The notes beneath the pieces are model-generated. The model was not told the DNA's origin. It saw only the letters and a program-made list of their open reading frames with translations, and ran no database searches. Positions 1 through 14,871 of a stretch of 64,000 nt of DNA are shown one piece after another. This DNA is from Prosthecobacter sp. Lineage in GTDB: Bacteria > Verrucomicrobiota > Verrucomicrobiia > Verrucomicrobiales > Verrucomicrobiaceae. The stretch is from contig NZ_JACSRD010000123.1 in assembly GCF_014879935.1 (NCBI RefSeq), positions 62,001-126,000 on the forward strand. The letters are read 5' to 3'. Made by a program: the position numbers and the translations under genes. Within the stretch, counting starts at the first letter, position 1. Each line of letters opens with the position of its first letter.

Positions 1-3000
1 AGATCAGCCGACGATTCAAGCTGGAAGGTCACGCCAGCGATGCCGGACGACTGCACCAGATGGGCATCGACACGACCGGCGCTGTTGGCGGTCAGCCACC
101 AGCCGCCATCAAAGCGATCACCTGCCCCGAGCACCTGCTCGATGAGATCACTGACGCCATCTCCATCGAAATCGACGTCGATGAGAGCCTTGTCCGCGAC
201 CGAACCTTCCGCCGGAGCCGACGACAGCACGTTTGTCGCCGTGAACGAGCCTGCGGGAACCGCCGCAGCCTGCACGATCTGCACGTTGTCAAACGTGGCC
301 GTGGCGAGATCAAAGGGCGACGACGACGTGACCGCGAGGCCCATGTAAACCGAATTGGCGAGGCCGGAGATCGTCACCGTGTCGATCAAAGTCCACGCGT
401 TGCCATTGGCCGAGGTGTAGGCGGTGATCGAATCGCCGCTGCGCACGAGTCGCACCCAGTTGTTCGGCGGCGTGCTCACCGCCGGTCCGCCGGCGTAGTT
501 CGTGGCTGCATTGGCGGTGGCACGCCAGACCAGGCCGAAACCGTTGTTCTCACCGGCCGGGGTGGTGAAGACCGTCGCGTGACGTGCGCCTCCTGCGAGT
601 GTCTCACGAATCATCACGCCCGTTTTGGCCCACGGATTGGTGTTGGTCTGGCTGGTGACACGCGCGCGGATTTCGCCATCGCCTGTGAGCTGCATGTGGG
701 CAAAGCGGAAGCCGTCGGCACTGAAAAAGATGTCATCACCGGAGCCTTGGAGCGTGTAAACGCCCGACGCGCTGTTGAAGGCCATGCTGCCTGCGACCTG
801 CACGGTGCCGACGTCCTGCGACTGCAGCGTGACCGTCGCCGGTGGTGCGTAAGTGACCGAAACTGTGTTCGAGGCCGTGCTGCCGACCGCGCCCGCGTTT
901 TGGGCCGCACTGGCAGGAAGCTGGATCGTGACGGCACCGGCGACGGTGGGCGTGATGGTGACCCCGTAGCTCGTGCCGGAGCCGGTCACATTCGAGGCAG
1001 CGCCGTTCGTCACGACAAAATCACTGGCGGTCAAGCCGGTCACCGACTGGCTGAACTGCGCCTGCACGGTGAACGCGCCGGTTTCAATGGCCGAAGCGGC
1101 GCTGAGCGTCACGGAAGGTGCCACGACGGCCTGCGAGCCGACAATTTGAACGTTGTCGAAGGTCGAAGTCGCCAGCGCCGCGGGTGAAGACGCGGTAACA
1201 GCCAGTCCGACATACACGGTGCCGGGCAAACCGCTGAGTGTGGCCGTGCCGACGAGCGTCCAGGCGCTGCCGTTGGCGGAGGCGTAGGCATTGATGGCAG
1301 TGCCTGAGCGGACGAGGCGCACCCAGTTGTTCGGCGCGGCGTTCAAAGCCGGTCCAGGAGCATAACTGGTGGCAGTATTGACCGTGGGACGCCAGACCAT
1401 GCCGAAGCCGTTGTTCTCGCCCGCCGGCGTGGTGAACATCATCGCGTGGCGAGCGCCAGCGGTGAGTGATTCACGGATCATCACGCCCGTTTTGGCCCAC
1501 GGATTGGTGTTCGACTGGCTGGTGATGCGTGCGCGGATTTCGCCGTCCCCGGTGAGTTGGGTGAGGGCGAACTGGAAGCCGTCGGTCGTGGAGAAAATGT
1601 CGCTGCCGGAACCTTTGACCGTGTAAACGCCGCCGCTGAAAACGGTGCTGCCCGCGACCAGTGGAGCGCCGACATCCTGCCCCACCAGCGAAACCGCCAC
1701 GGGGGGCGTGTAAGTGACTGAAACCGTGTTGGAAGCCAAGCTGGCCGTGTTGGCGGCATTTTGCGCCGCCGCCGCAGGCAAACTGGCGGTGACGAGGCCT
1801 GGACTGACCGGCGTGAGAGTCACGCTGTAGCTGGTGCCGCTGCCGGTGAGATTGCTGGCGGTGGCATTGGTCAAAACGAAGTCGCTCGCGGTCAATCCGG
1901 TCACGGACTGGCTGAACTGCGCCTGAATCGTGAACGGGCCGGTTTCGATCGCTGACGCCGCCGTCAGAGAGACCGTCGGAGCCACCACGGCCTGCGTTCC
2001 GATGACCTGCACGTTGTCGAACTCGGCGGCTGTTGTCACAAAGCTGTCCGCAGCCGTCGCGGCGAGCCCCACATACAGTTGGGAGGTCAATCCGGTGAGG
2101 GTGACGCTGTCCACCAGCGTCCACGTGCTGCCGTTCGCGGATGCATAGCCGGTCAGGACATTGCCTTGACGCACGAGACGCACCCAGTTGTTGGGAACCG
2201 CGTTCAGCGCCGGTCCGGCAGCGTAACTCGTGGCCGAATTCGCCACCAGACGAGACACAAGGCCGAATCCATTGCCTGCTGCGGGCGGCGTGATGAACAT
2301 CGTGGCGTGCCGGGAACCCGCCGCGAGCGACTCGCGCATCATCACACCGGCCTTGGCCCATGGATTGGTGTTGCCAAAGCTGCGCACGCGGGCGCGCACT
2401 TCACCATCGCCATTGAGCACGACCTGCACAAAGCGGAAGCCATCCTGCGTGAAGTAAATGTCCTGGCCGGAGGCGTTGACCGTGTAGATCCCCGTTCCAG
2501 CGTCGAAACTGGTCGATCCGGCGACGAAGCCGGTGCCCACATCCTGGCTCACAAACGCAGGCGCGTTGTTCGGAGCGGTGTAGGAGCGTGAAAGCCCATT
2601 GGACACGAGATTCGTCACGCCAGCGGCATCCTGCGCACCGCCCGCAGGCACGGAAATCGTCACATTGGCCGTCGGTGTGACAGTGAACGTGTAGGTGGTG
2701 CCTGAACCGCTGAACGCGCTCGCCGTTCCGCCGCTGACAGTAATGTCCGCCAGCGCAAAGCCGGTCACGGCATGGCTGAAGGTGGCCGTGACGACAAATG
2801 GATCGCTCACGCTGGCAGGTGCGGTGGTCGTGAGTTCCACCGTGACAGGCAGCGGTGCGGAAGCGGGCGCGTTGTCGATCTGTTCCAAATAGGCGACGAG
2901 GTTGGCGAGATCCGTGGCATTCAGCGTCACGCCCTGATGGGCGGTGACCGCATCGGCAAGCGTGGAGGCGGAGCCATCGTGCAGATACGGCGCGGTGGCC

Positions 3001-6000
3001 CACACACCACGCAAAGTGGGCACATCGAAGCCCGTGAGCGTGCCATTGAGGCGCTTGCCACTGGTGGGCTGTTTGATCGTGCCGACATCGCGGAAGACGT
3101 TCAACGCGCTGTTGGTGAACGATGTGCCGCCGTGACAGGCCGCGCAGTTTTGCTGTCGGAAGACGCGCTCGCCCGCGACGGCGGCTGCGGAGGCCGAGCC
3201 ATCGCTGTTGCGGTGCGGGCTGTTTGATTCGGTGGTGAGGGAGGTGACGTAAGCCGCGAGCGCGTCGAGATCACTGCTCACACCCGTTTTGGGATCGCCA
3301 AGAGGCTGGTTGCGCGTGCCCGTGTTGAACTGGGCGTCGCTCATCAGGCCCGTTCCGCCCGAGAAGGCGCGGATCTGGCCTTCGAAGTCGTGAACCTCGT
3401 CAAAATTGCCCGTCCAATGGAGCGCCCCATGAGCACCGTGGCCGCGAAGCGTGATGGTGTTGCGCAGGCCTTCCCCCACGCCGGTGAAATCCCACGTGCG
3501 GCCGTCGTGGCCGCCGTCATTGTGGCAGGAGGCGCAGGAAATGTACTCCTGCAGGGCCAGCCGTGAATCAGCGGCGTCGTAGAAGAACTGTTTTCCGCGC
3601 AACACGGCGGCGCTGAGTTTTTCGACATTGATCGCGTTCACGACGCCGAGTGTCAGCGGCGCGGCGCTGCCGCCCTGAACCAGACTGCTGACGTCATGCA
3701 CGCTCACCGTACGGGCCATGAAGTTGTGGACGAACAACGTGCGGCCGTCCGGCGAGATGGCGAGGCCCTGCGGGGCGAGCCCGGCATCAAACCGCGTGAT
3801 GACCGTCTTGTTCCAGGCATCGACGACAGCCACGGCGCGGCTGCTTTCGAGCGCCACGAAAACACAGATGCCCCATGGGTCGAAGATCGCGGCGCTGGGC
3901 ATGCCGGAGTTGTCGAAATCGACACGTCCCGCGTAATCCTCGGCCTGCGTGGTCAGATTGATGCGGCTGGCGATGGCGCGAAGCGATTGATCATGATTGA
4001 GGCCGACGCCGTTGCGCAACGTGCCGCGTTTGATGTTGTCCTGTTTTGACGGCACCCAGGCGGAGAGACCATCGGGAGACAGGGCCGTGGCGCCGAGGTA
4101 GTTTGGCAGGCCGTGCGCGGAGCTGGGTGAATCGTCCTTCTCGCTGTGCTGGAGCAGAATCGTGCGCTCGAGCGCCAGCGTCGATGCGGTGACGACGAGA
4201 ACCTCGCCACCACGGCCCGTGGTGACCGGCGAGGCGGTGTTTTCGCCAGGAACCGGCGGCGTGATGAAGCGGCTGACATAAACACGCGCTCCATCGGCGC
4301 TGACGGACACGTGACGTGCCTGGCGTCCGGCATTCAAGCTGCCGATCTGCGCTCCCGTGCTCGGATTCAGTTTCAAAAGCTGCCCGCTGCCCTCCAGCGC
4401 CACATAAGCCGCCGTGCCATTCGGATCGAAGGCGATGCCAAACGGCCGCGAACCGCGTGGAAGGGCCAGAGTGGAGGCCACAGCGTAGGTGCTGCCGTTC
4501 AAAATCGAGATCGTGGCGCTTTCCGCATTCGTGACCCACACCCGACCATCCGGCGCGAGCGCAAGACTGCGGGGCGCGAGGCCGACACTGGTCTCCGCGA
4601 GCTTCGCACGCGTGACGGCATCGATCACGGTGACGCTGTCGGTGTCTGGATTGACCAGCCACACGCGGTCATTGCCTGTGGCACGGTCTTCAAACACGAT
4701 GCTGGAGGAAACCGACGGCTTTTTCGTGGTGAGCGGCGCAAACACGGCCTGGAAAAAGGTGCTGGTGACGACCAAGCCCGTGTCATCGGTGGCTGTGATG
4801 ACGACCGTGTAGCGGCCTGGGCTGACGAAGGTGTGATTGATCGTGGCGCTGCTGCTGTAGGCGGTTTCAGGCGTGCCATCGCCAAAGTTCCACTTGAAGC
4901 GTGGATTGGCGCCGCCCGTGCTCGAAGCGGTGAGGGCGATGGAAGCGCCGGAGGCTCCTGGCGCCGATAGCGGCGGCTGCACGACGAGGTTGGCATTGAT
5001 CGTCCAGTTGAAGGAAACACTGACCGGGCTGGTGTTGCCATCACTCACCGTCACAACCACGGGAAAGGTGCCTGCCACGGTGGGCGTGCCATTGATGATG
5101 CCGCTGCCGGGATTGATCGCGAGACCTGTGGGCAGTCCCGTGGCGCTGAATGCCAGCGTGTCGTCATTGATGTCACTGGCCTGAATGGCGAGCGAAGCAG
5201 CCTGATTGATGACACCGCTGCGCGATCCGGGATTCGTCACGACGGGAGGTGTGGGGGGCGCAAAGGCGTTCACATTGATCTCCCAGGCGAGCACCTCGTG
5301 CGTGTTCGTGGAGCCGCCTGTGGCACCGGTGAAGCCGATCCAGGCGCTGGGGCCGGTCAAATTGGCCAGCTTCAGCGCTGTCTGGGTGAGCAGTGGCGTC
5401 GCCGGCTTTGTGGTGCTCACGCCTTGCACCAGATACACGCGCAGAGTGTCTGCCGGGCCATCGTAATCGACCCACAAGGTGTGGCTGGCTCCATTCTCGA
5501 GGTCAAACGGTGCCGTCGCGGTGCCGAGGTGGGGTGAAACGACACCATTGCTCAACACGCCGATGTGGTTCGCGTTCGGATCGGTGCCACCTGCATAGGT
5601 GTCGAGCTCAATCGCGAGGCTCTTTTGAATGCCTTCATACGCCAGACCACCGCCAGCGGCCCCGAGTGCGGTTGCGGCGCTGCCTTGCACCACGAATGTC
5701 ATGCCATCCGCACCGTCGCCCGTGCCATTCATGCGGAAAACAAAGCGGCTGGTGAATGAGGTGCCTTCGGAGACAGGAACCGGATCACTCAGAAACGCGG
5801 AACCGGCCTGAGTGCCCGCGTTTGGCGTCAAAACGAGCACTCCGCCCGTCATCGCGGCATTGCCATTGATCTGCCAGCCGGTGGTGAAGGTGAAGCTCGT
5901 GAATTGGCGGCTCACATTCGGCGGGGTGACGGTCCATGTGAAGGTGGCGCCCGCGCTGGTGATGCCATCGGTCACGGTGACACGTGCGTTGCTGAAGGTG

Positions 6001-7835
6001 CCCGTGCTCGTCGGCGTGCCGCTGATGACCCCGGTGGATGGATGAATCACGAGGCCGGTGGGAAGCCCCGTGGCACTGTAGGTCAGCGCTCCATTGCCGG
6101 GTGCCGTGCCGTAAACAGCCAGCGTTGTGGGCGCGTTCACGGCGCTGACCTGGCTGCCCGGATTGACCACGGAGACCGACGTCGTGGGATCGACCTGAAC
6201 GACCGCAGCGACGGAGTGCGCCCCGTTTGCGCCGATGGCAAAGAGCATCCAGTAGCCCGGCGTCATCACGCTGAGGTTCGAATGACCCGTCACGCTGTAA
6301 ACGCCGGGAGACGCCTCGGTGAACGGCAGGCTGAGGTAGCGCAGGTCCGTGTTCATCGCGTGGGTCTGCGACGACATCTTGATGAAGCTGAACCTAGTGA
6401 CGCCGGGCGTGGCCTGAACGGCAAACGTCGTGCCCACGCCGATGTAGGACGGCGCCTGCGTGATGACAGGACGCGTGGCGAGGCTGCCATCCAGATTGTA
6501 AAGCGTGGGCGGCGTGAAGACCTGCGCGTCGCGATGGTCGGCGCTGTTGCCGCCCAGACCGCCTCCGCCTGACCACACACGACCATCCGGCAGCAGCAGC
6601 GCCACGGAGTGGTAATTGCGCGGCACGCTCATCGGTGCGAGCTGGCGCCACTGGCGTGTGGCGGGATTCCAGATCTCCGGTGTGAGGACGGACCCCGTGT
6701 CATTGAATTTCAGACCGGAGGTGTTGCCACCGATCACCATCACCTCGCCATTGGGCAGGATGACCGAGTTCGCAAACTGGCGTGCGAAACTCATGGAGGG
6801 GGCGCTTTGCACCACCGGAGTGCCCGTGCGGATGTCGATGGTGAAGGCGGCAGTCGAACTGGTGCCGGTGGAGCTGTCGCTGGGGTTTGGATTGGTGTTT
6901 GTGGAGCCGCCTGCGACCAGGATGCGCCCCTCGTCATACACGGCGAAGCAGCCTTCCTTCGGATACAAGGTGCCGGGGACATTCACGCCGCTGTAAGTCA
7001 GGGTGCCCGTGCCGGTGGTCGTGACCCAGTTCATCTGGCGTGTCGGACCGCCGTGAAACAGGCGGCCATCCGGCGCCACCACGACCAGCGGGTGCCATCG
7101 GGTCACATAACCAGGCTGGCCGACCACCGTGGACCAGTTGATGCCGCTCAGGCGGGACCAGCCGCCAGCGGAGGTCCAGCGCTCGGCCGTGTTCGTGCCG
7201 CCGTCACCCGTGACGGTGAAAATGCTGCCGTCGGTGAGGGCCACGCTCGTGTTGTACCAGCGGCCATCGTTCATGTTTGGCACCGCCACCCATTGGCTCG
7301 TGCGCCAGTCGAACAAGCTGCTCAATCGGGTCGTGTTTCGCCCGCCATTGATCATCACCCGCCCGTCTGGCAGCATCGCCGTGCCGCCGCAGAACATGTC
7401 GTGACGCGTGTTGTTGATCTCGGTGAAAACGCCTGTGGCCGGATTCCACACCGCCGCATAGGTGAACTCGGGTCCTACCGGGAACGTGGTGCGCTGGTTC
7501 GAGGCAAAGGTCAGCAGACGACCGTCTGGAAGCGTCGCCGCAGTGACGGGAATGTGTGGCGTCCAGGAGATGATGTTTCCCCATTCACCCAACGAAATGC
7601 GGGCGGTCGCCACGGTGGCCGCAGGGGCCATGATGGGAAAAGCCGGGGCCAAAATCTGTGCTTCCGCTGCCAGTTGGTCGGAAAGGCCGTGATCGTCTTC
7701 GCCAGCATGAGCCAACCCACCCAGTCCCAACATCGCGATCAGGCCAAACGATCCCAAGAGGCGGCGGTCCTTGAATGAGCCTGTCTGGACGCTGTTGAGG
7801 GCAGTTCTGGGAATCTTCACAAGGTCGAGTCGCAT
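1..7835 (-). CDS. Giant secreted multidomain protein: copper radical oxidase + lectin + propeller + cytochrome c (C-terminus beyond window)
   Basis: The reading frame is open from the ATG at 7835 to the window edge (2,611 codons, no stop seen). A long signal peptide ends near residue 44 (AHA). Residues ~70-545 resemble galactose/glyoxal oxidase plus its C-terminal early-set domain. All copper-radical residues can be placed: Cys149 (HDMFCGG), Tyr194 (GRWYNTS), Tyr408-His409 (NYHSV) and His492 (THAMNTD). Then follow an Ig-like domain (~551-645), an L-type lectin-like domain (~645-855), a second Ig-like domain, a PKD domain (~948-1028), a YVTN-type propeller (~1038-1385) and a cytochrome c peroxidase-like module with heme motifs CASCH (1434-1438) and CAACH (1564-1568). 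Three Ig plus LamG/DUF1349-like repeats end the visible part. It is probably exported and oxidises sugars or aldehydes, making H2O2 that the heme module could use; that link is inference. Confidence 0.85.
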   Translation of the reverse strand, partial: MRLDLVKIPRTALNSVQTGSFKDRRLLGSFGLIAMLGLGGLAHAGEDDHGLSDQLAAEAQILAPAFPIMAPAATVATARISLGEWGNIISWTPHIPVTAATLPDGRLLTFASNQRTTFPVGPEFTYAAVWNPATGVFTEINNTRHDMFCGGTAMLPDGRVMINGGRNTTRLSSLFDWRTSQWVAVPNMNDGRWYNTSVALTDGSIFTVTGDGGTNTAERWTSAGGWSRLSGINWSTVVGQPGYVTRWHPLVVVAPDGRLFHGGPTRQMNWVTTTGTGTLTYSGVNVPGTLYPKEGCFAVYDEGRILVAGGSTNTNPNPSDSSTGTSSTAAFTIDIRTGTPVVQSAPSMSFARQFANSVILPNGEVMVIGGNTSGLKFNDTGSVLTPEIWNPATRQWRQLAPMSVPRNYHSVALLLPDGRVWSGGGGLGGNSADHRDAQVFTPPTLYNLDGSLATRPVITQAPSYIGVGTTFAVQATPGVTRFSFIKMSSQTHAMNTDLRYLSLPFTEASPGVYSVTGHSNLSVMTPGYWMLFAIGANGAHSVAAVVQVDPTTSVSVVNPGSQVSAVNAPTTLAVYGTAPGNGALTYSATGLPTGLVIHPSTGVISGTPTSTGTFSNARVTVTDGITSAGATFTWTVTPPNVSRQFTSFTFTTGWQINGNAAMTGGVLVLTPNAGTQAGSAFLSDPVPVSEGTSFTSRFVFRMNGTGDGADGMTFVVQGSAATALGAAGGGLAYEGIQKSLAIELDTYAGGTDPNANHIGVLSNGVVSPHLGTATAPFDLENGASHTLWVDYDGPADTLRVYLVQGVSTTKPATPLLTQTALKLANLTGPSAWIGFTGATGGSTNTHEVLAWEINVNAFAPPTPPVVTNPGSRSGVINQAASLAIQASDINDDTLAFSATGLPTGLAINPGSGIINGTPTVAGTFPVVVTVSDGNTSPVSVSFNWTINANLVVQPPLSAPGASGASIALTASSTGGANPRFKWNFGDGTPETAYSSSATINHTFVSPGRYTVVITATDDTGLVVTSTFFQAVFAPLTTKKPSVSSSIVFEDRATGNDRVWLVNPDTDSVTVIDAVTRAKLAETSVGLAPRSLALAPDGRVWVTNAESATISILNGSTYAVASTLALPRGSRPFGIAFDPNGTAAYVALEGSGQLLKLNPSTGAQIGSLNAGRQARHVSVSADGARVYVSRFITPPVPGENTASPVTTGRGGEVLVVTASTLALERTILLQHSEKDDSPSSAHGLPNYLGATALSPDGLSAWVPSKQDNIKRGTLRNGVGLNHDQSLRAIASRINLTTQAEDYAGRVDFDNSGMPSAAIFDPWGICVFVALESSRAVAVVDAWNKTVITRFDAGLAPQGLAISPDGRTLFVHNFMARTVSVHDVSSLVQGGSAAPLTLGVVNAINVEKLSAAVLRGKQFFYDAADSRLALQEYISCASCHNDGGHDGRTWDFTGVGEGLRNTITLRGHGAHGALHWTGNFDEVHDFEGQIRAFSGGTGLMSDAQFNTGTRNQPLGDPKTGVSSDLDALAAYVTSLTTESNSPHRNSDGSASAAAVAGERVFRQQNCAACHGGTSFTNSALNVFRDVGTIKQPTSGKRLNGTLTGFDVPTLRGVWATAPYLHDGSASTLADAVTAHQGVTLNATDLANLVAYLEQIDNAPASAPLPVTVELTTTAPASVSDPFVVTATFSHAVTGFALADITVSGGTASAFSGSGTTYTFTVTPTANVTISVPAGGAQDAAGVTNLVSNGLSRSYTAPNNAPAFVSQDVGTGFVAGSTSFDAGTGIYTVNASGQDIYFTQDGFRFVQVVLNGDGEVRARVRSFGNTNPWAKAGVMMRESLAAGSRHATMFITPPAAGNGFGLVSRLVANSATSYAAGPALNAVPNNWVRLVRQGNVLTGYASANGSTWTLVDSVTLTGLTSQLYVGLAATAADSFVTTAAEFDNVQVIGTQAVVAPTVSLTAASAIETGPFTIQAQFSQSVTGLTASDFVLTNATASNLTGSGTSYSVTLTPVSPGLVTASLPAAAAQNAANTASLASNTVSVTYTPPVAVSLVGQDVGAPLVAGSTVFSGGVYTVKGSGSDIFSTTDGFQFALTQLTGDGEIRARITSQSNTNPWAKTGVMIRESLTAGARHAMMFTTPAGENNGFGMVWRPTVNTATSYAPGPALNAAPNNWVRLVRSGTAINAYASANGSAWTLVGTATLSGLPGTVYVGLAVTASSPAALATSTFDNVQIVGSQAVVAPSVTLSAASAIETGAFTVQAQFSQSVTGLTASDFVVTNGAASNVTGSGTSYGVTITPTVAGAVTIQLPASAAQNAGAVGSTASNTVSVTYAPPATVTLQSQDVGTVQVAGSMAFNSASGVYTLQGSGDDIFFSADGFRFAHMQLTGDGEIRARVTSQTNTNPWAKTGVMIRETLAGGARHATVFTTPAGENNGFGLVWRATANAATNYAGGPAVSTPPNNWVRLVRSGDSITAYTSANGNAWTLIDTVTISGLANSVYMGLAVTSSSPFDLATATFDNVQIVQAAAVPAGSFTATNVLSSAPAEGSVADKALIDVDFDGDGVSDLIEQVLGAGDRFDGGWWLTANSAGRVDAHLVQSSGIAGVTFQLESSAD
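270..2850 (-). repeat. Three tandem ~860-bp coding repeats
   Basis: Within the giant gene three units of about 285 residues follow one another. Each has an Ig-like stretch (for example SAIETGPFTIQAQFSQSVTG) and then a jelly-roll-like stretch with NPWAKTGVMIRE and FDNVQ motifs. Similarity is visible in the DNA itself: the segment near 655-780 matches those near 1522-1640 and 2378-2500. The two units nearer the C-terminus (270-1130 and 1135-1990) are closest to each other. They look like surface stalk or binding modules that could expand or contract by recombination. Confidence 0.75.
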
Positions 7836-10512: not shown

Positions 10513-13500
10513 CTAAAGCCGCTCACCATGCGGTCCTAAAATCACGCAATCTGTGGGGAGTTGTCGTCTCACCTCGTCGAGATTCTTCAGTTTTCGACAG
10601 CCTGTCAAATTGAGGAGCCGCAAGGCACGCAGGGATCGGAGGTCGGGCAGGTTCTCGATGCTGGTGCAGTTCGACAGGTAAAGTTCTTTGAGAGCCGATA
10701 GGTTTTCGAGTCCATGAAGTGCGTCTGTCCCATGTAGGCCAGTGCAGAGACCCAAGTCCAACATTTCGAGTTCGCTCAGCTCCGCAAGCGGTGCCGTGTC
10801 AATCAGACCTGGGCAATTGAATAAGTTCAAGGTCTTTAGCTTTTTCATTCCTGCCAGCCCCTGAAAAGCTTGGCTGCCCTTCAGGCAGGAACAGTGACCT
10901 AAGTCTAGAATTTCGAGCTGCCGCAATGAGACCAACCATGCTGTGTCCTTGAGCCCGGTGCAGTGTGCCAGACTGAGATGAAGCAAACCATCGACTCCAG
11001 CAAAGCATCGCAAATCTTCCGAAGTGAGTGTGGTGCATTCATACAGAATAAGCAGTTTTCCAGAGTATTCCGGGAGCACAGCGATCAGGGCGTCGAGGAC
11101 CTCTTGACGGTGTTCTGTTCTCTCCAGCAAAAGTGAGGCAACAGGCCAGTTCTTTTCATCGCGACTTTCCCATGCCAGGTGTGGCCAGCTCAGATAGGCG
11201 TCCCATAGGATGAGCCACCAAGTCTGACGCTTGTCGGATGAGATAGGGATTTCCGGGTCGGCGGTGAGTTTGACGAGGAGGCGCACGGCATCGAGCGGGA
11301 GGAGCGGCTTCGCCGGCTCCTGCTTTTCGGTTCGCTGTTCTCTGTTGGTGGTGTGCAGCGCGGGGAAGAGCCAGCGGAGGAGGGTGGGGGCATCGGCTTT
11401 GCGCGTCTCCAGCAGGAAGATGAGGGGCTCGTGCCAAGCAGGCAGGGCGGGCAAGTTTTTGAAGGACTCACGCGAGTGCTGGATGGGACCGGGAGGAGGG
11501 AATATCTGCTCCAGCTCCATAGCGGTGAGCTGCATGTCTTCCAAAAGTGCCTCCGAGTGCCGAGCGAGCTGGCGCTGGCGCCGGTCGAACTCCATGCCCA
11601 GCCACTCGGCGGCGAAGAACTCCATGAACGACAGGTGGGTGAAGCTATAGACGGTGTTTCCGTCTGCATCACTGCTGCGCGGGATGAGTAGGCCACTGCG
11701 GCTGGCGATGTGGTGCAGCAGCTCGTCGAGCAAGGCGGTGGCACTGTGATCCCTTGTCACCTTCCCAGCCTGTTGCATCGACTCGATGGCCGGGAGGAGC
11801 AACTGAGCCAACTCGGGCATGGCGATGAGTATATTGCCGTCCTTGTCTCCTTTCTCGCTTCCAAGCCGGATCTTCTGCATCAGAGCCCCGAGGAGGGAGA
11901 GAAGAAAGCGGCGCTCCGCTGGCTCGAAGGGGCAGGTGTTGCCGAGGATGGGCTGCATTTTGTAGGCGGCATCGATTCCGCCGAGGTAGGCCTTGACGAT
12001 CTCGTCATACAAAGCAGCGCGGCCATCGGGGAGCGGTTTGCCGCTACGTTTGAGCATGTTCATCATGCACAGCAGGTTCGGCACGCGGGAGATGATGCGC
12101 ACGCCATCGTGGTGATGGGCGCGGACCTCACGCATTAGCTCCTTGGAGAAGTCCGTGCTGTGCCGGTGCCGGAACCAGCGGCTGGTGAAGGCGTCCTGAC
12201 GTTGGTTGTCGAAGGGAGATAGATGGAGACGCTGGGCAACACGCTGTTCTCGGTAAAAAATAAAGTTGCGATTGCTTGGAAATGCCTCGCTTACCAATGC
12301 CTTTGCTAGGCTGGCGCTCAAAGCGGCTTCGATAAAGGTCGGAGGATGCCCTGAATGCGGCGGATCATAAAGGTAGCCTGACCACTGCAAAAAACTACGA
12401 GTCCAGTCTTCAAGGCATTGGATTAGTTTGTCTTCCGTCACTCCACCTGCCGCCTGGATATTCGTGAAACTAAAACCAGATGCGAGATCCACGATGTCCA
12501 CAGGAGCGGCATCATACCCAATCACCCGCGACGTGATCAACCACCGCGCCTCTTTGCTCACCGCCTTGATGCCGTCCTGAATGCACTCGACGATTTTCCG
12601 CCTCTTCGCGAGGTCGCCGATCTCGTCGAGGCCGTCGATGAGGAAGAAGAGTTTCGGGTCGGAGTGGAGGAGTTGGTAGAATTCCTCGCGGTGGTCTTTG
12701 TAGGCATCACAAAGCAGCGGGGCGGTCTCTTCGCGCTGGTAGTGCTCGATGAGGACGGTGATGAGGCGGTCCCAGGTCCAGCTTTCGACCTCATTCTGAG
12801 GTAGCAGCGGTACGAGGTCCCGCAAGATGAGCGGGACGGGCAGCAGGCCGGTGAGCACGGGCGCTCCGGGCAGCGGACGCCGGCTGGCAAGGTGGGCGAT
12901 GAGGGCTTGGATGATCGTGCTCTTGCCCATGCCGGGATCGGCCAACAACACGGTGCGGCGGTAGTCGTCGTGGGCGAGCAGCGGCAACAAGTCCTGTGTG
13001 GGCAGGCGCGGCGGTGTCTCCCGCTGGGCGGCATCCATATCCTCCGGGCGGAGGTGCTCCGCCGAGCAAGCGGGATGGACAAAGATGTCCCAAATGTCCG
13101 GGCAGGCCTGATCGGCGGCGGCGTAGTTGTCGATGGCAAGCTCTTGATAGGCTGAGAACGCAGCAACGAGGGCACGCTTGTAAGCCGCAAGGCGACCTGG
13201 TGCTGTTTGCTCGACAAGCATCGCTTCCACTTTGCTGATGCCTGACGTGAGTTCCTTGTGTCGTCGGGTCGATTTGCGTCCTTCGCTCTTCTGCTTCTTC
13301 GCGATCTCCTTCGTGCGCTTGTCGATGTCTCCCAGCTTCACTGAACGCTCTGTTTGGAATCGCAGCATGCTTTCACGAAATGCCGTCAGCGCCACCGGGT
13401 GGTCAGTAATCAAGGTATCCGCCAAAGCGGCCGTCAGCCACGGACAGACGACTTCGGCTAATTTCTGCTGCCAGCCTTGTTTCCACAGCACATCGCTGAC

Positions 13501-14109
13501 TCCATGCTGGAACCACTGAGTAAAGAACGTGGAGAGCAAGGCTGGTTCGACCGTGGGACTCGTTCCAGAGCCATCATGCGCGGCCTGCAAAGCGAGCAGA
13601 AAGTCCTTTTCGATCAACGGTTGCATGCCGGGAATACCCTGTGCCACAAACATGCCCCAGCAGCGCGGCAATTCCGGCAATCCTGCGGTGAGCTTGTCCT
13701 TTACCTCCGTAAACTCGGACTGCGTGAGCGCTTCCTTCACGAGGCTCTGCAAGACCAAGCCGGTAAAGCGAACGAGCGCGTCATCCGTGGCTTCGAGCTG
13801 CTTTGCCGACAAGGATGCTAATTTTCCGTCCACCAGCGTCTTGATGCGCTCTCCAAGTATGTCCTGGACGGCCGATTCGACCTCACCCGGCTCTTTGGAG
13901 TCAGCAATTTGGGCTCGGACCATCTTGTAGCCTGCTCGCAAAAGCGGGAGCGCTATTTTGCCAGTCTGATAGATGCCGAGAGCGGTAATCGTGAGGCCCA
14001 TGATGACCAGTTTGTGAGAGAGGCGTTGGTTTTGCCAAAGGAATTTCCCAAACACCACACCGTTCCGAATCACCGCTTGAGACTCGAATCTTGCCGAAAG
14101 GCGGGGCAT
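10513..14109 (-). CDS. NACHT-type STAND NTPase with leucine-rich repeats
   Basis: 1,198 residues. The N-terminal ~380 residues are helical with one hydrophobic stretch (about 33-60) and no recognised effector domain. The NTPase core follows: Walker A DPGMGKST (391-398) and Walker B LFFLIDGLDEIG (487-498), where the acidic DGLDE is typical of NACHT proteins. The end (1042-1185) has about six leucine-rich repeats of the form LxxLxLxxCxxL. Bacterial NACHT proteins of this shape include antiphage sensors, and the neighbouring HipA and toxin-antitoxin genes fit a defence island. The ATG at 14109 faces the ATG of the antitoxin on the other strand, so Met37 (ATG at 14001) may be the true start. Confidence 0.82.
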   Translation of the reverse strand: MPRLSARFESQAVIRNGVVFGKFLWQNQRLSHKLVIMGLTITALGIYQTGKIALPLLRAGYKMVRAQIADSKEPGEVESAVQDILGERIKTLVDGKLASLSAKQLEATDDALVRFTGLVLQSLVKEALTQSEFTEVKDKLTAGLPELPRCWGMFVAQGIPGMQPLIEKDFLLALQAAHDGSGTSPTVEPALLSTFFTQWFQHGVSDVLWKQGWQQKLAEVVCPWLTAALADTLITDHPVALTAFRESMLRFQTERSVKLGDIDKRTKEIAKKQKSEGRKSTRRHKELTSGISKVEAMLVEQTAPGRLAAYKRALVAAFSAYQELAIDNYAAADQACPDIWDIFVHPACSAEHLRPEDMDAAQRETPPRLPTQDLLPLLAHDDYRRTVLLADPGMGKSTIIQALIAHLASRRPLPGAPVLTGLLPVPLILRDLVPLLPQNEVESWTWDRLITVLIEHYQREETAPLLCDAYKDHREEFYQLLHSDPKLFFLIDGLDEIGDLAKRRKIVECIQDGIKAVSKEARWLITSRVIGYDAAPVDIVDLASGFSFTNIQAAGGVTEDKLIQCLEDWTRSFLQWSGYLYDPPHSGHPPTFIEAALSASLAKALVSEAFPSNRNFIFYREQRVAQRLHLSPFDNQRQDAFTSRWFRHRHSTDFSKELMREVRAHHHDGVRIISRVPNLLCMMNMLKRSGKPLPDGRAALYDEIVKAYLGGIDAAYKMQPILGNTCPFEPAERRFLLSLLGALMQKIRLGSEKGDKDGNILIAMPELAQLLLPAIESMQQAGKVTRDHSATALLDELLHHIASRSGLLIPRSSDADGNTVYSFTHLSFMEFFAAEWLGMEFDRRQRQLARHSEALLEDMQLTAMELEQIFPPPGPIQHSRESFKNLPALPAWHEPLIFLLETRKADAPTLLRWLFPALHTTNREQRTEKQEPAKPLLPLDAVRLLVKLTADPEIPISSDKRQTWWLILWDAYLSWPHLAWESRDEKNWPVASLLLERTEHRQEVLDALIAVLPEYSGKLLILYECTTLTSEDLRCFAGVDGLLHLSLAHCTGLKDTAWLVSLRQLEILDLGHCSCLKGSQAFQGLAGMKKLKTLNLFNCPGLIDTAPLAELSELEMLDLGLCTGLHGTDALHGLENLSALKELYLSNCTSIENLPDLRSLRALRLLNLTGCRKLKNLDEVRRQLPTDCVILGPHGERL

Positions 14110-14392
14110 GCGTTACCCAATGCACATGATCATGACCCTCGACATCCCGGAGGCGCTCGCTGCGCCGCTGAAGCGGGCGGAGGCATCGCTGCCGCGTGTG
14201 TTGCTGGAAGGTTTTGCGGTGGAGGCTTACCGGCAGGGCATTCTTTCAGCCGCCCAGGTGCGGGTGCTGATGGGGCATGAGTCACGCTGGGAGACAGAGG
14301 ATTTTCTTTCCGCGCATGATGCCTGGCCGGGAACTACGGTAAAGCAGGTGACGGAGGACGGCCGGCAACTCAGCGCTTTGTTGAACGCATGA
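14108..14392 (+). CDS. UPF0175 family protein (probable antitoxin)
   Basis: Up to 94 residues. The core MTLDIPEALAAPLKRAEASL, followed by LLEGFAVEAYRQGILSAAQVRVLMGHESRWETEDFL, is the small helical UPF0175 fold, commonly the antitoxin to a DUF3368 PIN toxin. The gene overlaps the toxin start by four bases (ATGA), as expected for such a pair. Starts at 14108, 14120, 14126 and 14132 are all in frame. The first is preceded by a weak GGCGG ribosome-binding sequence but overlaps the start codon of the NACHT gene on the other strand. Confidence 0.8.
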   Translation: MRYPMHMIMTLDIPEALAAPLKRAEASLPRVLLEGFAVEAYRQGILSAAQVRVLMGHESRWETEDFLSAHDAWPGTTVKQVTEDGRQLSALLNA

Positions 14393-14871
14393 TCGTCGTG
14401 AGTGACACGACGCCGCTGCGCTATCTGGCGGTGCTGGGTTTGCTCGATGTGCTGCCGCGTCTGTTTGGAAAGGTTCACTGCCCGGCGACGGTGATGAAGG
14501 AATGTCTTCATCCGCGTGCTCCGGCGGTTTTGCGGGAGTGGGCAGCGGAGCCGCCAGACTGGCTGGTGTGTCATTCCGCTCAACAGGTTCCGCCAGAGCT
14601 GGCCAGCCTCCTCGACGCCGGTGAGGCGGAGGCGATCACGCTCGCCCTCGAATGGAATGCTGATGTGATCTTGATCGATGAAATGGACGGCCGGCGTGCG
14701 GCTCGTGAGCGAGGCCTGATCACCGCAGGCACGCTGAACATTCTGGCACAGGCAGCCGAGCGTGGCTGGCTCGACTACGATGACGTGGTGAGCCGCCTGA
14801 GGTCGGAAACCAACTTCCGCACGACTTTGGCAGTGATCGAGGCGGCGCGGGCTGCTGCCCGGCCCCAGTGA
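14389..14871 (+). CDS. DUF3368 PIN-domain toxin
   Basis: 160 residues. A PIN-like nuclease fold is indicated by VVSDTTPLRYL at the start (first acidic residue), an internal Glu near VMKECLH, the DAGEAEAITLALE motif and LIDEMDGRRAARERGL near the C-terminal acidic site. PIN toxins of this family are thought to cleave RNA and to be neutralised by the preceding UPF0175 protein. The two genes share ATGA and are surely co-translated. Confidence 0.83.
   Translation: MIVVSDTTPLRYLAVLGLLDVLPRLFGKVHCPATVMKECLHPRAPAVLREWAAEPPDWLVCHSAQQVPPELASLLDAGEAEAITLALEWNADVILIDEMDGRRAARERGLITAGTLNILAQAAERGWLDYDDVVSRLRSETNFRTTLAVIEAARAAARPQ

Follow-up and report, generated by a model that had tools for sequence, protein, structure and literature searches.

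The recurrence of one protein architecture together with its neighbouring gene points to a copper/heme oxidase system, the chemistry of which is putative. The window, which here means the whole stretch of DNA analysed (64,000 nucleotides, G000:C182:62001-126000), begins with a gene for a giant secreted protein in which a predicted copper-radical oxidase, a propeller and a diheme cytochrome module are joined in a single chain. We recovered 66 distinct full fusions of this kind from independent assemblies, and many of them adjoin a partner gene that combines a copper domain with a second diheme enzyme. Taken as a whole, our reading of the system as an oxidase provided with built-in heme redox support and with a copper-loading or maturation partner is tentative, and our confidence in it stands slightly below even.

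The reading frame at 3..7835 on the reverse strand is free of stops in the window sequence, and in the whole genome the gene is a single intact frame of 2,971 aa (G000:C182, L003:5921-14836:-), with a divergent leuB-type gene upstream. An earlier note on this DNA, made from the letters alone, had placed the protein at 1-7835; this extent holds for the N-terminal 2,611 aa, while the complete gene runs on past the window start. The features discussed below are the following, all on the reverse strand.

1..7835 (ORF 3..7835), reverse strand: the part of the gene present in the window, coding for the first 2,611 of 2,971 aa; a further ~1,080 nt at its 3' end fall beyond the window start
7704..7835, reverse strand: signal-peptide-like N-terminus, aa 1-44 (...GLAHA/GED), judged by eye
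6192..7601, reverse strand: predicted copper-radical oxidase module, aa 79-548, kelch propeller and galactose oxidase (GO)-like E-set (Pfam, phmmer, modelled homologue)
7389..7391, reverse strand: Cys149, equivalent to galactose oxidase Cys228, predicted Tyr-Cys cross-link partner; Cys in 62 of 64 resolvable fusions
7254..7256, reverse strand: Tyr194, equivalent to galactose oxidase Tyr272, predicted radical site; 66/66 fusions
6609..6614, reverse strand: Tyr408-His409, equivalent to galactose oxidase Tyr495 and His496, predicted Cu ligands; 66/66
6360..6362, reverse strand: His492, equivalent to galactose oxidase His581, predicted Cu ligand; 66/66
5250..5915, reverse strand: legume-lectin-like domain, aa 641-862 (Pfam), optional in the family (12/66 fusions)
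4752..5249, reverse strand: linker domains He_PIG (863-947) and PKD (950-1028) (Pfam)
3681..4712, reverse strand: seven-bladed YVTN-type propeller, aa 1042-1385, hydrazine synthase beta-like (5c2v_B, Z 36.1, rmsd 1.9 over 305)
2877..3650, reverse strand: diheme cytochrome module of the bCcP/MauG superfamily, aa 1396-1653 (sequence profiles)
3522..3536, reverse strand: heme 1 site CASCH, aa 1434-1438; 66/66
3414..3416, reverse strand: Trp1474, aligned with the inter-heme Trp of CcP/MauG; 66/66
3132..3146, reverse strand: heme 2 site CAACH, aa 1564-1568; 66/66
2937..2939, reverse strand: His1633, predicted second axial ligand of heme 2; His in 62/66, Met in 3 (Met in CcP, Tyr294 in MauG)
192..2846, reverse strand: alternating Big_12/DUF1349-like repeats, aa 1664-2548, which differ among family members

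From the signal-peptide-like start the chain runs through the kelch and GO-like E-set domains, a first He_PIG domain, the legume lectin, a second He_PIG, the PKD domain, the propeller, the diheme module and the alternating Big_12 and DUF1349 units to a conserved C-terminal region. Pfam recognises the kelch, GO-like E-set, He_PIG (twice), legume lectin, PKD, CCP_MauG, Big_12 and DUF1349 domains, the CCP_MauG match being accompanied by one to RoxA-like cytochrome c. The presence of the oxidase and the two-heme module in one frame, as the earlier note had it, is borne out: the residues C149, Y194, Y408, H409 and H492 and the two CXXCH sites (CASCH1434, CAACH1564) read at the positions given there, and no frameshift or stop, which it had named as grounds for refutation, separates the modules in the whole-genome frame. 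The lectin, which had been made part of a self-contained machine, was rejected as a core component, being found in the minority of the fusions given above and missing from the paralogue encoded in the same genome (P0002, 2,364 aa). The core of that paralogue is identical in kind, at 52-56% identity.

By its sequence and a modelled homologue, the N-terminal module is an AA5-fold copper-radical oxidase with a site like those of galactose oxidase and GlxA, the Tyr-Cys cofactor, the copper and the radical being predicted. The window protein scores 60.3 bits with PF09118 against a cut-off of 25, and phmmer aligns the oxidase module with the solved galactose oxidase of Pseudoarthrobacter siccitolerans (9g43) at E=4e-100 and with the Fusarium enzyme at about 1e-72. 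Both the Cys, Tyr, Tyr, His, His site and the fold of kelch plus GO-like E-set, which characterise AA5, are present and are common to the giant protein and these two enzymes. Modelling, which the earlier note had proposed, was done for this part on a compact homologue of 1,179 aa composed of oxidase, PKD, propeller and diheme (L174; pLDDT 84.5, pTM 0.78), the oxidase module of which superimposes on 9g43 with Z 54.1 and rmsd 1.7 over 452 residues and on the Fusarium structure 1gof with Z 50.5. Tyr194, Tyr408, His409 and His492 are invariant across all distinct full fusions. In two Thiotrichaceae proteins (L151:411-4934 and L161:1393-6393) Ala replaces the cross-link Cys, all Cu/Tyr ligands being kept.

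The pair Trp290/Arg330 marks the galactose 6-oxidases (PMC11267884). It is absent from the 66 fusions, the 290 site being small or polar and the 330 site mostly Glu or Val, and since these determinants are not conserved the substrate is probably not galactose. The designation as a galactose-oxidase-type enzyme thus stands for the five active-site residues and for the fold, and does not extend to sugar or galactose specificity. The score with the GlxA equivalog (NF052501) was 151 bits, below its cut-off of 800. Unlike the galactose oxidases, moreover, the giant protein has a fused propeller-diheme region and a partner gene.

The model of aa 1042-1657 is a confident one (pLDDT 90.5, pTM 0.92). 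The propeller, already read from the letters, has seven blades and matches an archaeal surface-layer protein and the beta subunit of hydrazine synthase. Foldseek matches to the models were dominated by propellers, and the diheme assignment rests on sequence: PF03150 scores 36.8 against a cut-off of 25.6, which together with the two CXXCH sites places the module in the bCcP/MauG superfamily. Among the diheme profiles the top one is the hydrazine synthase beta-gamma fusion NF052342, at 86.8 bits far under its cut-off of 1250 bits, and hydrazine synthase gamma is a slightly better match to the diheme part (1.2e-15) than the CcPs are. The order of a seven-bladed propeller and then a diheme with a predicted bis-His heme 2 is common to both, whereas hydrazine synthase has no galactose-oxidase module and its key gamma-heme residues differ. 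The active heme of hydrazine synthase is gammaI, and heme gammaII has bis-His coordination (PMC12758564; PMC12607021); the latter has been proposed to swap electrons with a cytochrome (PMC12607021). By alignment, a His is conserved in our proteins at the ligand position of the bis-His heme gammaII, while gammaHis144 and gammaCys165 are not matched, Trp1474 occupying the His144-equivalent site and the region containing no Cys.

The distal Gln, Pro and Glu are conserved in bCcP, MauG and BthA (PMC6405878). In the giant protein they are missing at the aligned positions F1484, Q1487 and L1497, as judged from a sequence alignment, and the second ligand of heme 2 is a His in place of the Met of CcP or the Tyr of MauG, although the two CXXCH sites and the inter-heme Trp are common to all. 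In view of the missing distal residues and the His ligand, the module appears to combine an open heme and a bis-His relay heme, unlike a canonical peroxidase or MauG. The description of the module as cytochrome c peroxidase-like therefore survives at the level of the superfamily and fails at the distal residues and at the Met ligand. With the canonical distal set absent from the alignment, a reaction of the module with H2O2 cannot be taken for granted, although the diheme might possibly consume it. Replacement of Tyr by His in MauG and in BthA kills the bis-Fe(IV) signal, while the peroxidase activity of BthA stays (PMC6405878). This persistence, like the PF03150 score, the paired CXXCH motifs and the conserved Trp, agrees with a simple tandem in which H2O2 from the oxidase is broken down by a genuine bacterial CcP-type module that draws its electrons from an outside donor. 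We nevertheless regard such a tandem as unlikely, given the loss of the aligned distal residues, the His at heme 2 and profile and PDB scores nearer to hydrazine synthase beta-gamma.

Enzymes are commonly wired by fusion of an oxidoreductase to a cytochrome, and the giant protein might accordingly be a copper-radical dehydrogenase, in which the reduced Cu(I)/Tyr centre would pass its electrons directly to the diheme and on to an external acceptor and O2 would not be the main oxidant. The oxidase module, however, closely matches O2-using enzymes, and we know of no copper-radical oxidase that works in this way; we consider this arrangement improbable, even though a predicted bis-His relay heme beside an open heme, as in hydrazine synthase gamma (PMC12607021), would suit it. 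It is very improbable that heme 1 performs a separate chemistry, e.g., on NO or other small molecules in the manner of hydrazine synthase gamma, and is merely co-located with the oxidase. The best architectural match (NF052342; 5c2v) and the existence of oxidase-less siblings would fit this, but the match falls far short of the family cut-off, the gammaHis144 site holds Trp as in CcP/MauG, the counterpart of gammaCys165 is not a Cys, and the fusion with the oxidase is kept across phyla. Finally, an artefact of assembly or frameshift, or a set of decayed modules, has a virtually negligible probability as the origin of the fusion, since in spite of the split ORFs in L118, L121 and L140 it is refuted by the 66 full-length fusions from independent assemblies, with invariant catalytic residues and with the named strains Brevifollis gellanilyticus NBRC 108608 and Roseibacillus persicicus KCTC 12988 among their carriers.

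A search for the whole architecture with HMMs, also proposed beforehand, showed that the fusion recurs well beyond Verrucomicrobiota. By a search of named genomes and local domain scans the full cases were found in at least six phyla: Verrucomicrobiota, Pseudomonadota (Woeseiaceae, Thiotrichaceae, Methylococcaceae and others), Myxococcota, Chloroflexota, Acidobacteriota and Deinococcota. A few MAG records are labelled 'Klebsiella pneumoniae' or 'Akkermansia muciniphila', probably in error. The GO E-set was present in 45 of the 190 sampled genomes of the order, mostly in ORFs over 2,000 aa. In the tree of the propeller-diheme region the oxidase fusions make up one clade (100/99) relative to their oxidase-less siblings, with L118 as the one exception. 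At that locus (L118:8953-15702) the oxidase and the propeller-diheme lie in adjacent ORFs 30 nt apart, which may be a natural split or a sequencing error. Since the fusions form one strongly supported group and the exception is a split ORF, the tree suggests a single fusion event with later spread as the simplest reading.

In most of the oxidase-less siblings the place of the oxidase is taken by an LVIVD-type propeller together with a Big_5 domain. Because such versions exist, the propeller-diheme did not evolve only for serving the oxidase. These sister giants (L084-L093, L095, L096, L098-L101) include one from the genome of the window itself (C130, L084:5787-12887:-), and the genome G118 holds four of them.

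A same-strand partner gene adjoins 36 of the 66 fusions, often with a 4-nt overlap, and is a copper-handling element that the earlier account of the giant protein did not contain. Of these partners, 27 are of the MbnP-MbnH type and occur in Verrucomicrobiota, and the 9 others belong to Gamma- and Myxobacteria. In the window's own genome a protein composed of an MbnP domain and an MbnH/MauG-type diheme enzyme (P0003) is encoded with a 4-nt overlap to the paralogue P0002. Both domains are those of MbnP-MbnH, the methanobactin-associated copper protein and diheme enzyme; here, in contrast, they form a single protein, which is paired with a copper-radical oxidase. The MbnP domain of the partner scores 111.5 bits with PF20243 (cut-off 27), while the curated cut-offs of MbnH (TIGR04039; 255 of 363 bits) and MbnP_like_WxW (TIGR04052; 34 of 140 bits) were not reached. 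The N-termini of the gamma- and myxobacterial partners gave a YtkA match in 7 of 10 tested, two of them above the Pfam cut-off. Domains of the YtkA kind take part in the assembly of CuA, and in Bacillus subtilis YtkA is a copper-metallation domain (PMC13344008). Unlike the giant protein, the partner retains the MauG set of Trp, Gln, Pro, Glu and the Tyr ligand in at least 31 of 32 cases. In the set of oxidase-less siblings examined, none had a partner gene beside it.

Apart from adjacency, MbnP domains were found in 43 of 45 oxidase-bearing genomes of the order and in 44 of 145 others (Fisher 7e-16, a value that ignores relatedness). The two exceptions are G056, the oxidase of which is an unfused 538-aa protein, and G123, in which the gene lies at a contig edge. 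About 30 fusions, including that of the window, have no adjacent partner, and a contig end accounts for some of these. The clade of the window gene (L003, L104, L106, L107) has no adjacent partner at all and is nested in a clade having it, i.e., it has lost the adjacency; partner genes are present elsewhere in the window's genome. We tried the second MbnP-MbnH gene of this genome (C270) as the relocated partner of the window gene, which the identities do not support: it is ~50% identical to the partners of the close relatives of the window gene and 69% identical to the copy in a Cus-type locus. The latter is an MbnP-MbnH fusion in a copper-efflux locus (L188:6447-14001, G077:C34) with CusA-type (ACR_tran), CusB-type (HMBD/HlyD) and multicopper oxidase genes. 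Two further MbnP-MbnH genes of the oxidase-linked kind (L185:7794-9581 in G088 and L187:835-2601 in G045) have no neighbouring oxidase, the oxidase copies lying elsewhere in these genomes.

The genomes show the anatomy of the protein, the conservation of its residues, the grouping of the fusions in a single clade and the linkage to the partner; on these we would build a scheme every catalytic step of which we infer. The N-terminal module would oxidise an extracellular primary alcohol or aldehyde, reducing O2 to H2O2. The C-terminal diheme would be its built-in redox partner, the accessible heme 1 reacting with H2O2 or another oxidant and the bis-His heme 2 relaying single electrons, so that peroxide would be consumed and the Cu/Tyr-Cys centre held in, or restored to, its active radical form. 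The partner, with its MbnP- or YtkA-like domain and MauG/MbnH-type diheme, would load copper and/or drive cofactor maturation. The idea of built-in redox support and copper loading derives from precedents in trans and from the copper-binding N-terminus of the partner: maturation of the Streptomyces copper-radical oxidase GlxA needs the heme peroxidase DtpA in trans, Sco acting likewise (PMC4736821), and a peroxidase reactivates glyoxal oxidase (PMC10928124). In both systems a bacterial copper-radical oxidase would rely on a heme enzyme together with a copper carrier, but DtpA (a DyP) and Sco are separate proteins, whereas here one diheme sits in cis on the oxidase chain and an MbnP/YtkA-MauG-type fusion serves as the partner. 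In favour of this reading are the invariant oxidase and heme residues, the modelled match to galactose oxidase, the single clade, the adjacent partner, the co-occurrence of MbnP and the locus with CusA, CusB and multicopper oxidase; the missing distal Gln/Pro/Glu, the oxidase-less propeller-dihemes, the partnerless fusions and the two Cys-less Thiotrichaceae count against it.

The component parts were already known, and the earlier remark that no example had been described agrees with our search of the open-access literature, subscription journals being outside its coverage, in which neither the single-chain combination nor its pairing with a copper/heme partner was found described. Should electrons pass between the two centres, a new class could credibly be claimed. 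It is possible, though the balance leans against it, that a copper-tyrosyl radical centre and a diheme within one chain swap electrons directly, whether as a self-activating enzyme or as a dehydrogenase, with a dedicated copper-loading and oxidising partner, and so constitute a new class of copper-heme oxidoreductases in several phyla.

Copper-radical oxidases do not retain their radical, and their lasting activity requires, in practice, the addition of an oxidant or a peroxidase; to our knowledge their maturation and reactivation in bacteria are known in outline only for GlxA. If the proposed scheme is true, a natural heme-relay fusion with a copper-handling MauG-type partner would show the answer of evolution to both problems, the MbnP-MbnH-type fusions would gain a client enzyme outside the methanobactin loci, and a self-maintaining alcohol/aldehyde oxidase would become available for biocatalysis. 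The fusion is carried by deposited culture-collection strains and is hence amenable to testing.

Elsewhere in the window, positions 10513-14109 on the reverse strand encode a 1,198-aa protein with a NACHT domain and leucine-rich repeats, for which PADLOC gave no match. The gene at 14389-14871 on the forward strand encodes a 160-aa protein that has no Pfam match and matches the PADLOC candidate family PDC-S70.
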